Shown here: positions 6,438 to 11,059 of the stretch, in pieces
Numbering within the stretch: position 1 is the first letter of the stretch
How the letters are laid out: the number at the start of each line of letters is the position of its first letter
Assembly: GCA_009773455.1 (NCBI GenBank)
Contig: WSXU01000002.1
Span: 248,001-312,000, forward strand
Direction of reading: 5' to 3'
DNA length: 64,000 bases
Origin: Bacteroidota bacterium
GTDB lineage: Bacteria > Bacteroidota > Bacteroidia > Bacteroidales > Lentimicrobiaceae
Translations under genes and position numbers: made by a program
Notes under the pieces: generated by a model
Database searches by the model: none
The model's input: only the letters and a program-made list of their open reading frames with translations
Told to the model about the DNA's origin: nothing

Positions 6438-9101
6438 TCACTTTGTTGATTGCCTGATCTGCTTCATTAACTGATCGCCCAGCCCGATGCTGTACCCCTC
6501 CGAATGCCAGACAATCTCCCCTTTTCCGTTGATCAGTACAACAACCGGGTACTGTGGAATACCCTCTATGCTGCATGCTACGCTTACAGAAGCAGAAACT
6601 TCGGCTTTTTCATCCGAGCCAAATGCAGATTTCACCGGAATACCCTTATAGATGGTATGGTTAAAACCCGGAGTGAGCTTATCTTTTGCAACCAGGAAGA
6701 GCAACTGACCACCCCAGATGTCCAGCCCGCTCTTCACGGTCCTGATGTCTTCCATCAGGTGTCGGGTTGGTTCCTTCCCGGGGTCAATAATGGCAATGAC
6801 CATCCCTTTTTCCGAAGTGAAATCAGCAAGTTTTACAGATCCTCCCGCCTGAAGTTTCCGGAAACCTGCTTGCATGTCTGCCTTGCCCAGAATACCCGAT
6901 TGTTGTTTTTCAGAGGCCAGACTGACTGTTACCCTGGTTGTCTCATTCAATCTGATACGAAAGTAGTTTATGCTGCAAACAACCGACCCGTCAGCCTGCC
7001 TGTTTCCGGTCATCAACCGGTAAAGTCCGGTATCAACCGTCAGATTGCACGGGAATGTCCTGAGAGACTCGTCTGACTCATAGTCAAGGGTGATAAACCG
7101 GCCTTTATCAAGCCGGGCCAGGGTATAATGAATATAATACTGTGGAATAAAAGATTTATCATCCGATTTGTTCTCTAGTAAAATATTTCCCTTAGCACCG
7201 GGAGAGACAATCCTTCCTGAAAAATAAACTTCATTCCACAACCCGTTTCGGAAAAACTGGGGTACACGGGTTGCCGGTTCAAGTCGGGATGGAATGCCGA
7301 AACTCCTGCATATGGCCACAAATAAAACATCACGTGAGTATCTGTCGGACCGCTTCAACTGGAGCACTCCTTCCGGACTTAAAGGCACATTGTAATAATT
7401 TGAAACTGTATCAAGCACGATGTGATCAGTGATCCAGTTTACGATTTCAACGGGATTTTTCCTGAACAATTCAGCCATTTCAGGAGCAAACAATTGTTGT
7501 GTCCGGCTCCGCCATTTTGTTACGAATTCCCTGCCAATCCTGGGTGAAAGCACATACCGGTCAATATACTCCTTTCCTGAATTTTCCACCATAGAAGGAT
7601 ACTTTCCAAATGCATTCAAATGATCATTCATAACAGAAGCCTGAATGTCATGCAGATCCTTTTCTGAAATGTTGGCCAGGAGAGCCATTCCTGTACCTGA
7701 ATTTTCATCTGTAAATCCGTTTACAAATGCCGCGATCTCCTTCCAGTTGCCACGGCTGTTCATGAGGTAACCCCATAATTCGCGGCCATCCAGGCCCTTT
7801 CCGGTTGCAATTTTAACTGCAGAAACCGAATCAATAAATGTTGCGATATAGGCATTCCGTATTGAATCTTCCTGCTTTAGCCTGTGGTTGTTGATTTCAG
7901 CTTTCGACTGATCGGCTGGCGGCAACTGCTTTCTGGCCGGTGGAATCAGGGTGAATATTTTATCCGGAAGGTTGTAATCAGCTGAATTCAATTGAATTAC
8001 GATGGTATCAGTGTCCTTTGTCTTAACAACCTGATGTCCAAAAAAGCCATCCTTTGATGCCCACACCACCAGATCACCAAAACCTGTGGTTACATCACAA
8101 AATCCTTGTTTATCTGTGAATTTGGTTGCTATCGGGTAGAATTCGGCATAATTGTAAAGCGAATATTCAACCCTCACATTCTCAACCGGTTTACCTTTTC
8201 TGTCATTGATCTTCACCGGGACTTTTCTGGTATCTGTATAATTCCTGAGCAGGTTCAGTCTGGTAAATCTGTCATTTCTTTCTAACACTTCCTCATCACC
8301 CCTATACTGACCATAAACGAACGTATGAGTCATCATAGCCCGTTTCACAGGTTCTGCAAACCAGGCCATATCAAGGGCCGGTTCCGGCTCACAGGCTCCC
8401 ATAAAATGCCATTTACCGTCAATCCAGATTTCTACCCAGGCATGGTTGTCATCGGTATGAGCCCATCGGGGGGTATATACCTGTCTGGCCGGAATGCCGA
8501 CAGCCCGCAAGGCGGAAACGGTGAAAGTGGACTCCTCTCCGCATCGGCCAAAAGCAGTTCTCACTGAAGTTAACGGACCGGATGTCCGCTCATCGGTCGA
8601 TTTGTAATTCACTTTTTCGTGACACCAGTGATTGACTTCAAGGGCTGCTTCAGCCATGTCCATTCCCTTTAGGCGGTCCTTCAGCTCTCTGAGGAAAACC
8701 TGCCGGGCCGTATCGGTATATTCATTGTTGACACGGTATGGAAGGACAAAGTGAAGAAACACCTCCTCAGGGATCTGCTTTCCCCACTTAAAAAACGCTC
8801 TTGCTTCCAGTGCACTTCTTACCTGTTTAAGATTGTATTCCCCGTCATTCATGGCCAGATCGCTCAGTGGCATAAAGGCATAGAGGAATTCAAGTCCTTC
8901 TGTCTCAGCTATCGTGAGTTGCTGATTAAAAACGGAAAAAAGCACTGAATCCCGGCCTTTGGCCAGTTCCTTTTGAATCAGGAATTGACTATGCACCTGT
9001 TTTCTGAAATCTTTATCAACAATGAGATGCTTATTATCTGATATCTTACAGGACATTAAAAAACCCAACGAAACGAAAATGACCAGGATAGAATATTTCA
9101 T
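6438..9101 (-). CDS. Transglutaminase-like lipoprotein with thioredoxin-like C-terminus
   Basis: 887 residues. Signal peptide with lipobox LMSC (Cys18) predicts a lipoprotein. The transglutaminase-like core has the catalytic Cys in GRCGEES (Cys187) and the His in DNHAWVEIW (His220). The canonical third residue (Asp) falls in WHFMGACEPE, where Gly stands at the expected place, so activity may use another residue or be altered. A carboxypeptidase-regulatory-like beta domain follows (about 295-345). The last ~120 residues look like a thioredoxin fold: cis-Pro segment YPVVVLINGKGEIVWHSEGY, but no CxxC. It faces the efflux operon tail to tail. It probably cleaves or crosslinks peptides outside the cytoplasm; the substrate is unknown. 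Confidence 0.8.
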   Translation of the reverse strand: MKYSILVIFVSLGFLMSCKISDNKHLIVDKDFRKQVHSQFLIQKELAKGRDSVLFSVFNQQLTIAETEGLEFLYAFMPLSDLAMNDGEYNLKQVRSALEARAFFKWGKQIPEEVFLHFVLPYRVNNEYTDTARQVFLRELKDRLKGMDMAEAALEVNHWCHEKVNYKSTDERTSGPLTSVRTAFGRCGEESTFTVSALRAVGIPARQVYTPRWAHTDDNHAWVEIWIDGKWHFMGACEPEPALDMAWFAEPVKRAMMTHTFVYGQYRGDEEVLERNDRFTRLNLLRNYTDTRKVPVKINDRKGKPVENVRVEYSLYNYAEFYPIATKFTDKQGFCDVTTGFGDLVVWASKDGFFGHQVVKTKDTDTIVIQLNSADYNLPDKIFTLIPPARKQLPPADQSKAEINNHRLKQEDSIRNAYIATFIDSVSAVKIATGKGLDGRELWGYLMNSRGNWKEIAAFVNGFTDENSGTGMALLANISEKDLHDIQASVMNDHLNAFGKYPSMVENSGKEYIDRYVLSPRIGREFVTKWRSRTQQLFAPEMAELFRKNPVEIVNWITDHIVLDTVSNYYNVPLSPEGVLQLKRSDRYSRDVLFVAICRSFGIPSRLEPATRVPQFFRNGLWNEVYFSGRIVSPGAKGNILLENKSDDKSFIPQYYIHYTLARLDKGRFITLDYESDESLRTFPCNLTVDTGLYRLMTGNRQADGSVVCSINYFRIRLNETTRVTVSLASEKQQSGILGKADMQAGFRKLQAGGSVKLADFTSEKGMVIAIIDPGKEPTRHLMEDIRTVKSGLDIWGGQLLFLVAKDKLTPGFNHTIYKGIPVKSAFGSDEKAEVSASVSVACSIEGIPQYPVVVLINGKGEIVWHSEGYSIGLGDQLMKQIRQSTK

Positions 9102-9207: not shown

Positions 9208-9215
9208 TACCTTTG
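9208..9215 (+). promoter_or_regulatory. Promoter -7 element of the asnB leader
   Basis: TACCTTTG is a perfect match to the Bacteroidetes -7 consensus TAnnTTTG. No good TTG is present 19-20 bases upstream, so the -33 element is weak. Transcription would start near 9222, about 16 bases before the leader-peptide ATG. Confidence 0.65.
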
Positions 9216-9237
9216 CGTTAATAGGTTAGAGAATTTT

Positions 9238-9288
9238 ATGACAAATTACAGCAATTCGGTTTTAAACAATAATCCTGTCGCGGATTAG
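9238..9288 (+). CDS. Asn-rich leader peptide of asnB attenuator (16 aa)
   Basis: An ATG at 9238 opens a 16-codon frame, MTNYSNSVLNNNPVAD, ending in TAG at 9286-9288. Five of 16 residues are Asn, including three in a row at codons 10-12 (9265-9273). It sits between a consensus -7 box and an intrinsic terminator, directly upstream of asparagine synthetase. This is the layout of amino-acid biosynthetic leader peptides such as those of trp or his operons: stalling on Asn codons when charged tRNA-Asn is scarce would spare the terminator. That it is translated is inference; the amino-acid match with the downstream enzyme is the main support. Confidence 0.75.
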   Translation: MTNYSNSVLNNNPVAD

Positions 9289-9323
9289 GAAAGCTGTTTT
9301 GTTGACCATAAAAAAAGGCTTTC
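9289..9323 (+). promoter_or_regulatory. Predicted antiterminator of asnB leader
   Basis: GAAAGCT (9289-9295) plus TTTT (9297-9300) can pair with AAAA (9313-9316) and GGCTTTC (9317-9323), with G9296 bulged and one G-U pair. This would occupy the left arm of the terminator. The 5' arm starts immediately after the leader stop codon, so a ribosome that finishes the peptide would cover it and favour termination, whereas a ribosome stalled at the Asn run would leave it free. Confidence 0.65.
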
Positions 9324-9344
9324 ATGATCGGGAAGCCTTTTTTG
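9310..9344 (+). terminator. asnB: Attenuator terminator upstream of asnB
   Basis: Stem AAAAAAGGCTTTC (9311-9323) with GGAAGCCTTTTTT (9331-9343), 13 pairs with one G-U, loop of 7 bases, T-run built into the 3' arm. No gene ends just upstream on this strand, so its natural role is attenuation of asnB, which starts 49 bases later. Confidence 0.85.
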
Positions 9345-9392
9345 TTTTCCTTTAATGATTGGGGCCAGGAGTCTAATTAAAACAATGTTACT

Positions 9393-11059
9393 ATGTGCGG
9401 AATCGTAGGTGTATTTGATCTGAAAGCAGGATCCGGGGATTTAAGGGTACAGATATTGGAGATGTCAAAAAAACTCCGGCATCGCGGACCGGACTGGTCC
9501 GGAATTTATTGCGGCGAAAAAGCCATCCTGGCCCATGAACGACTCTCAATCGTCGACCCGCAGTCGGGTGGACAACCCCTGAAAAGCAGCGACGGAAATC
9601 TTATACTATCGGTTAACGGGGAAATATACAACCATATGGAACTCCGGAAAGATCTGGTTCAGGATTATCAATTCCTTACCCATTCTGACTGCGAGGTAAT
9701 TCTGGCTCTATACCGGCAAAAAGGCATCGGGTTTCTCGAAGATCTGAATGGTATCTTTGCCTTTGCACTTTATGATGCAGAAAACGATTGCTACCTGATT
9801 GCGAGAGATCACATGGGCATAATTCCCCTGTATATGGGCTGGGATCAATCGGGTAATTTTTATGTGGCATCTGAACTCAAGGCCCTCGAAGGCTATTGTA
9901 ACCGGATTCAGGAATTTTTGCCCGGACATTATCTTTACAGCAAAGACGAGAAATACGACGCTGGTATAGTCGAGACTGGACCGATTATGCAAATGTCATA
10001 GGGAACAGGACAAACCTTCATGATCTGAGAAATGCGCTCGAAGAATCGGTTCACCGGCAGCTGATGTCGGATGTGCCCTATGGTGTTTTGTTATCCGGAG
10101 GGCTCGATTCATCGGTAATCTCAGCCATCGCCAAGAAATATGCCGCACGCCGCATTGAATCGCACGATCTTCAGGAAGCCTGGTGGCCACAGCTCCATTC
10201 ATTCGCCATAGGATTAAAGGGGTCACCTGACCTTGCAGCAGCAAGTATCGTAGCACAACATATCGGGTCAATCCATCATGAGATTGAGTTTACCATCCAG
10301 GAGGCATTGGATGCGTTACGTGATGTCATTTACCATCTCGAAACCTATGATGTGACGACGGTCAGGGCTTCAACACCCATGTACCTGATGGCTAGAGTAA
10401 TTAAATCCATGGGGATCAAGATGGTTCTTTCCGGTGAAGGCGCCGATGAGGTATTCGGGGGGTACCTTTATTTCCATAAAGCGCCGGATGCACAAGCCTT
10501 TCACGAGGAAACTGTCAGGAAACTATCAAAACTTCATTTATACGATTGCCTCAGGGCAAACAAATCGCTGGCAGCCTGGGGTGTCGAGGGCAGAGTGCCC
10601 TTCCTGGACAAGGAATTCCTGGATGTTGCCATGCGCCTGAATCCGGAGGATAAAATGGCAAAAGACGGCAAGATGGAGAAATGGATACTCCGGAAAGCAT
10701 TCGAGGATTATCTTCCCGAAAGTGTTGCATGGAGACAGAAAGAGCAGTTTTCAGATGGAGTCGGGTATAGCTGGATCGACACACTGAAAGAGATGGCTGC
10801 TTCTCAGGTGACCGACGACCAGCTTGCCAATGCCGGGCACCGATTCATTGTTAATCCACCCATGTCGAAGGAGGAATATTTCTACCGTTCAATTTTCACG
10901 GCTCATTTCCCTTCGGATGCGGCAGCAAGGTGTGTTCCCTCGGTTCCTTCAGTCGCCTGCAGCACACCGGAAGCCCTTGCCTGGGATGCTTCTTTTCAGA
11001 ACCTTAACGATCCTTCAGGCAGGGCAGTTAAAAACGTGCACAACCAGGGCTATAAATAA
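9393..11059 (+). pseudogene. asnB: Asparagine synthetase B (glutamine-hydrolysing), frameshifted
   Basis: The two halves together match full-length AsnB (about 555 residues). Part 1 (9393-10001) has the N-terminal nucleophile in MCGIVG and the class-II glutaminase domain. Part 2 has the ATP-binding SGGLDSS motif and the synthetase domain through the conserved end DPSGRAV. The frame breaks near 9957-9962: after KDEKYD the correct continuation WYSRDWTDYANVIGN is read from 9962 in the other frame, so one base appears to be missing relative to a functional gene. No homopolymer explains slippage there. All active-site motifs survive, so this is either a very recent inactivating mutation or a sequence error. 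It converts Asp, Gln and ATP to Asn, and is preceded by an Asn-rich attenuator. Confidence 0.9.

Follow-up and report, generated by a model that had tools for sequence, protein, structure and literature searches.

The trp and his attenuators of enterobacteria are ribosome-mediated switches built from alternative hairpins (1:2, 2:3 and 3:4). In Firmicutes, asn genes are regulated by Asn-specific T-boxes. For Bacteroidetes and Chlorobi, Vitreschak reportedly predicted some attenuators in 2004, for other amino acids. Naville and Gautheret wrote in 2010 that, the ermC leader aside, they knew of no demonstrated leader peptide system from beyond Proteobacteria and Actinobacteria until their own Bacillus case (PMC2965389); their text is free of the terms Bacteroid- and asparagin-, as is an Actinobacteria survey (PMC1262725). 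According to a leader-gene survey, the distance to the structural gene peaks at 11–14 bp in Bacteroidetes, and the term asparagin- is absent from it (PMC4833913). Among the matches listed in the open-access literature no Asn leader was found, in line with an earlier note on this DNA that was aware of none in Bacteroidetes; the papers likeliest to list one, Vitreschak 2004 (FEMS Microbiol Lett) and Lopatovskaya 2010 (Mol Biol), were not covered. The mechanism of attenuation is known; Asn specificity, use before asnA and asnB and a tandem form appear to be undescribed in the literature searched.

We analysed a stretch of 64 kb from a Bacteroidota genome, called the window in the following. Judged by sequence, the element upstream of its asnB gene is very probably a ribosome-mediated transcription attenuator of the trp/his type that is specific for asparagine.

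Results

The asnB gene of the window, coding for a glutamine-hydrolysing asparagine synthase B, is located on the forward strand (9393–11059). A gap of 291 bases separates it from a transglutaminase-like gene on the reverse strand (6438–9101; open reading frame and domain match). Because this neighbor is divergent, a terminator in the gap can act only on a transcript begun within the gap. All features of the element are on the forward strand. The Bacteroidetes −7 box has the consensus TAnnTTTG, and the box claimed in the earlier note was found as TACCTTTG at 9208–9215; by eye, no good −33 box precedes it at the usual spacing, the −33 region being weak. The leader frame MTNYSNSVLNNNPVAD and its stop codon occupy 9238–9288. 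Five of its 16 codons encode Asn, three of them consecutively, making it by sequence an Asn-rich leader, and it has counterparts in 13 other asnB loci. The stop codon TAG (9286–9288) adjoins the 5′ arm of an antiterminator (region 2, GAAAGCT, 9289–9295), which can pair with GGCTTTC at 9317–9323. The latter lies within the left arm of an intrinsic terminator (9311–9343) with 13 pairs and a U run, formed by region 3 (9311–9323) and region 4 (9331–9343). Computed pairing, together with covariation and geometry in 33 loci, indicates that the antiterminator excludes the terminator. As in trp/his-type attenuators, the terminator is placed between leader and structural gene by sequence and fold, and asnB starts 49 nt downstream of it. 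Leader frame, adjoining stop codon, competition for the left terminator arm and distance to asnB are thus present as the earlier note had described them.

Leader codons at 9249–9263 (region 1) are predicted to pair with 9290–9304 in a 1:2 hairpin, an anti-antiterminator, based on folds of the window and seven relatives and on synonymous recodings. A small hairpin UAAUCC/GGAUUA within this structure (9270–9287 in the fold) begins at the last Asn codons and reaches the stop codon; it is also present in the folded f1 and f119 relatives L003, L004, L006, L095 and L097. Segment 9238–9346 folded with −33.5 kcal/mol (z −4.1), and none of 200 shuffled sequences was as stable; for the longer segment 9208–9400 the z-score was only −1.63, with 15 of 200 shuffles as stable. 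Leader and region 2 together exceeded all 300 synonymous recodings in stability (z −3.94). The terminator hairpin (−12.2) outweighs the antiterminator prefix (−9.0) in stability, so that the outcome of the switch would hinge on which structure folds first. For comparison within the window, 1279 ATG frames of 7 to 45 codons were evaluated on both strands, with nested starts counted apart. The MTNYSNSVLNNNPVAD frame, listed twice due to nested starts, was the only one with a given amino acid three times in a row, present in four or more copies and as 25 % of the frame, and with a terminator downstream. The window element exceeds chance.

The C-terminal part of AsnB scored 584.5 bits against a cut-off of 499 for NF006949 (NCBIfam asparagine synthase B; E 2.1e-175), and the N-terminal part had the same family as best match (287.6 bits, E 1.8e-85). 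The parts also matched the Pfam families GATase_7/GATase_6 and Asn_synthase. The NCBIfam match assigns to the structural gene the synthesis of the amino acid that the leader would sense. The gene is broken in this assembly: one frame covers 9393–10001, while the remainder of AsnB is in another frame, with the junction near 9947–9950. The break could mark the attenuator of the window genome as a decaying relic, though one that works in relatives, and the lack of matches to hisG (PF01634) and ilvD (PF00920) in this 95 % complete genome would agree with a loss of amino-acid genes in the lineage. We regard such a decay as improbable. The asnB genes of two relatives (L003, L006) are single open frames of 555 amino acids with 84–89 % identity to both window pieces, and the alignments of the halves contain no further stop or gap; the leader is intact and asnA had no match in the genome at E ≤ 1e-40. 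A single shift is explained by an error in the assembly, a draft of 4.81 Mb in 159 contigs, which is probably its origin. The absence of hisG and ilvD, which were searched for as internal controls, points to a possible auxotrophy for His and branched-chain amino acids with asparagine synthesis kept. A search for trpE in the window genome yielded two chorismate-binding matches.

Related asnB genes were searched for an upstream Asn-rich frame with terminator, a check named in the earlier note, and the arrangement proved conserved in 14 asnB loci, counting that of the window, which belong to three families of the order Bacteroidales. In the genus of the window, three of 19 genomes had asnB (E ≤ 1e-40), all three with leader and terminator. 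Family f119 had asnB in nine of 16 genomes (E ≤ 1e-70) and the element in eight of these nine, and in family f58 it was present in all three asnB genomes. Across the order, an asnB match (E ≤ 1e-50) was obtained for 93 of 393 genomes; three of these (G241, G022, G278) were left out, and five of the 90 upstream regions in this order-wide sample contained a leader. The element is patchy, most asnB orthologues sampled across the order being without it. L007 and L008, with AsnB at 81 % identity, have no leader upstream. The leader peptides diverge yet retain Asn (MIHNINSAINNNPFTG, MAYINNTVSNNNPCRD, MAQNFNTVFNNNNPFPD, MFSPNTLFNNNNPVPD, MFTYNTFSNNYNPVPG, MLNHNTLFNTNNPLAD, MYLLNNNNLFNYNPFQW and others). 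In 13 of 13 asnB leaders tabulated, a TAnnTTTG box was found 27–41 nt upstream of the leader ATG, and the terminator preceded asnB by 46–89 nt; at the fourteenth locus, L098, the leader is placed further upstream. A covariance model built from ten leaders (R1) recovered L098, L009, L010 and L012, all outside its alignment, with 47–118 bits, and gave nothing at E ≤ 1 in five leaderless asnB loci (L007, L008, L013, L014, L015).

Asn leaders were also obtained upstream of asnA, which was present in 155 of the 393 genomes of the order at E ≤ 1e-40. Nineteen of 90 upstream regions examined had one (13 of the 30 best matches, six of 60 further ones). The asnA loci with an Asn leader were L132–L136, L138–L142, L144, L145, L161, L175, L194, L205, L214, L217 and L220 and, in named genomes, L233, L257, L273 and L267. 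Of 385 genomes sampled across the phylum, 19 had asnA at E ≤ 1e-60; four of 20 asnA loci had Asn-run frames, those of L294 and L295 being leader-like and those of L303 and L307 being judged to be without leader form. A pattern scan blind to the downstream gene was applied to 84,980 species genomes and returned 70 matches, ten of them upstream of asnA or asnB. Nine matches combined a T tail with a short in-frame ATG frame. Eight of them preceded asnA or asnB, and the remaining one, L225 (Pedobacter), was not upstream of an asn gene. Taxa with scan matches before asn genes included Hymenobacter duratus, Hymenobacter sp. HSC-4F20 and H. psychrotolerans (Cytophagales) as well as Vicingus serpentipes (Flavobacteriales). 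Asn codons in 33 asnA and asnB leaders were AAT (191) and AAC (43).

Within the genus of the window, genome G012 has an asnA gene (L214) with the Asn leader MILFAQNNNNLFNHFSLNNGLKREAFV, while the window's species has an asnB with one.

A+T-rich DNA commonly yields Asn codons, and a short frame might coincide by chance with an unrelated small RNA or with a terminator that is constitutive. A frame with at least four Asn, 18 % Asn and an NN doublet stood ahead of a terminator in 38 of 214 unique asnA and asnB upstream regions. The same rule for the other 19 amino acids gave five cases for Leu, two for Lys, one each for Ile, Phe, Ser, Thr and Ala, and none for the rest. In each of 20 dinucleotide-shuffled sets of the 214 regions, no Asn case was observed. 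Five of the 38 positives (L233, L257, L267, L273, L114) had been chosen by a match to a leader pattern or model; 33 of 209 are left once these are removed. Locus L099 has a leader and misses the rule for lack of an NN doublet; the listing of upstream leaders contains three Asn-containing frames without terminator. The frames of L027 and L298, marked positive in this listing, were discounted as leaders by judgement. Given these counts, and conservation and covariation besides, a chance frame is hardly credible and in our view refuted by the comparative data.

The attenuator reading was examined further at 33 loci (15 asnB, 18 asnA), with leaders of a second type left out. From 34 chosen loci L273 was dropped, as no stem could be fitted; L010 and L105 in the set encode the same peptide. 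Folding of eight asnB loci revealed a hairpin of leader and post-stop sequence followed by the terminator, which at most one of 200 shuffled sequences equalled in stability (z −3.1 to −5.1). Over the 33 loci, pairing of the antiterminator arm with the terminator arm of the same locus averaged −13.2 kcal/mol, compared to −6.7 for the shuffled arm. Permuted partners reached −10.9 kcal/mol (sd 0.35), and none of 20,000 permutations was as low, with kinship between loci not removed. Paired changes were GGAAAGC/GCUUUCC, GGAAGGC/GCCUUCC, CGGAGG/CCUCCG and GGGGAGG/CCUCUCC. The covariation of the two stems that the earlier note had asked about was thus borne out by partner permutation, but not by RNAalifold: from a plain MAFFT alignment of 13 sequences the latter retained no more than the terminator and three inner pairs, and covariation was slight. 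The 1:2 arms involve differing codons in MAFFT alignments, hence per-sequence folds, partner permutation and synonymous-codon tests were used instead. A median of 14 nt separated the last Asn codon from the start of the antiterminator arm (10–90 %: 11–16.8 nt; 33 loci), the 6 nt of L095 being off since its best duplex is not the core helix. When the 10 nt after the last Asn codon were masked, the best fold of 33 of 33 prefixes up to region 3 contained the antiterminator. Leader and region 2 were more stable than their synonymous recodings (mean z −2.25 over 33 loci), an effect absent in L010, L105 and L119 (z above 0) and weak in L003, L106 and L135. Conserved spacing, covariation and the fold of the leader with region 2 are marks of a stalled-ribosome switch. 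Parts, conservation, covariation and spacing of the putative attenuator are established by sequence and comparison.

Twelve loci carried two units of Asn leader and terminator in series: L132–L136, L140, L161, L175, L205, L220 and L267 before asnA, and L114 before asnB. The second terminators of L175, L205 and L220 were identified by eye. In five f32 genomes (L138, L139, L141, L144, L145; all asnA) the second leader type was seen alone. In leaders that come second or stand alone, the Asn run is often followed by Pro-Pro, and in several of them the stop codon comes directly afterwards. By eye, the Pro codons of the f32 leaders (CCACCU and similar) can pair with AGGCGG, which can also pair with CCCGCC of the terminator.

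R1 was also run over the 393 genomes of the order. The five known asnB leaders and 25 weaker matches (L107–L131, E 3.7e-5 to 6.7e-3) were inspected, the weak matches not being counted as asnB leaders. By eye, 11 of the 25 were attenuators, four for Asn, four for His, two for Ile and one for Trp, and 14 resembled unrelated terminators. The Asn leaders preceded asnA (L108, L111, L119) or a distant asnB (L114); the genes of L111 and L114 pass the NCBIfam cut-offs for asnA and asparagine synthase B, respectively. His leaders were located before hisG (L109, L120, L127, L130) and Ile-rich leaders before ilvD (L107, L110), with hisG of L109 and ilvD of L107 above the NCBIfam cut-offs. For the Trp leader (L128), trpE was the best NCBIfam match, under the cut-off (425.7 of 517.7 bits). 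One gene per kind was tested against NCBIfam, and for the remaining four His and Ile cases the assignment was made by eye. Judging from these His-, Ile- and Trp-rich leaders with terminators, attenuation of the classic kind seems to be used for several amino acids in the order. The correspondence of leader and gene also bears on what the asnB leader senses. Queuosine is relevant to the codons AAY, UAY, CAY and GAY, and Tyr, His and Asp codons are adjacent to Asn in several leaders (NYNP, NHN), so the signal might be queuosine modification of tRNA or generally slow translation in place of charged tRNA-Asn. Such a signal is very improbable, as Asn dominates with five of 16 codons here and runs of three to seven in many other leaders, and as the other leaders of the order match their own genes (His/hisG, Ile/ilvD, Trp/trpE). 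Control by charged tRNA-Asn, the proposal of the earlier note, is favored by the comparison, Asn leaders preceding 14 asnB loci and asnA genes as well. Asn codons and alternative stems recur in relatives, as this proposal requires.

A T-box or another ligand- or tRNA-binding riboswitch could control asnB by the same signal, Asn T-boxes being known from Firmicutes. No Rfam family reached its threshold in the window, including T-box and the His, Trp, Thr, Leu and Phe leaders; the best leader family below threshold was Phe_leader with 24.4 of 55 bits. The sole Rfam match over 13 related loci was a tRNA gene in L136. With a 5′ region that is moreover short and coding, a riboswitch at this locus is extremely unlikely.

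Discussion

We infer transcription and translation of the element, ribosome stalling and a response to asparagine from its organization as an attenuator. Transcription would start just past the −7 box, and a ribosome would translate the 16-codon leader. With ample charged tRNA-Asn, the ribosome would reach the stop codon and cover region 2, thus the 3:4 terminator could form and transcription would stop before asnB. With scarce charged tRNA-Asn, it would stall at the Asn codons and mask region 1, leaving region 2 free; region 2 could then pair with region 3 as antiterminator and RNA polymerase would continue into asnB. Without translation, the leader codons would sequester region 2 in the 1:2 hairpin and termination would be the default. 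The 14-nt spacing can be read against the size of the ribosome footprint: a ribosome held at a starved Asn codon would have its leading edge immediately before the antiterminator arm, and one at the stop codon would cover this arm. The near-constant spacing between the last Asn codon and the antiterminator offers a checkable estimate of the ribosome leading edge in these bacteria.

The loci probably represent a widespread, undescribed class of Asn-specific ribosome-mediated attenuation in Bacteroidota, controlling the non-homologous enzymes AsnA and AsnB in Bacteroidales, Cytophagales and Flavobacteriales and including a dozen tandem loci. If true, asparagine joins the amino acids sensed through leader-peptide attenuation, and two attenuators in series would give a steeper response to the charging of tRNA-Asn. 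One sensor design before two unrelated enzymes, sometimes doubled, would present a natural series on the origin, transfer and tuning of attenuators. The element is also evidence that the classic mechanism serves several amino acids in Bacteroidota. The 1:2 structure, the asnA cases, the tandem attenuators and the frameshift in asnB are additions to the earlier note.

Among known systems, the Asn T-boxes of Firmicutes have the signal, charging of tRNA-Asn, and the target genes in common with the window element. Unlike the latter, they bind tRNA directly without translation of a leader, and a T-box match was not obtained here. The enterobacterial trp and his attenuators (Rfam Trp_leader, His_leader) share the leader rich in the cognate amino acid, the alternative hairpins and the terminator before a biosynthetic gene; the window element differs from them in its specificity for Asn, its position before asnB and the lack of an Rfam leader match at threshold. 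The His, Trp and Ile leaders of the same order resemble the asnB leader in the order of parts and differ in amino acid and gene. The asnA leaders are likewise Asn-rich and followed by a terminator, with the antiterminator arm about 14 nt past the last Asn codon in 18 asnA loci. In contrast to the asnB leaders, they precede a non-homologous enzyme, the leader frame often extends over region 2, some are in tandem, and Pro-Pro is frequent in second or sole leaders.
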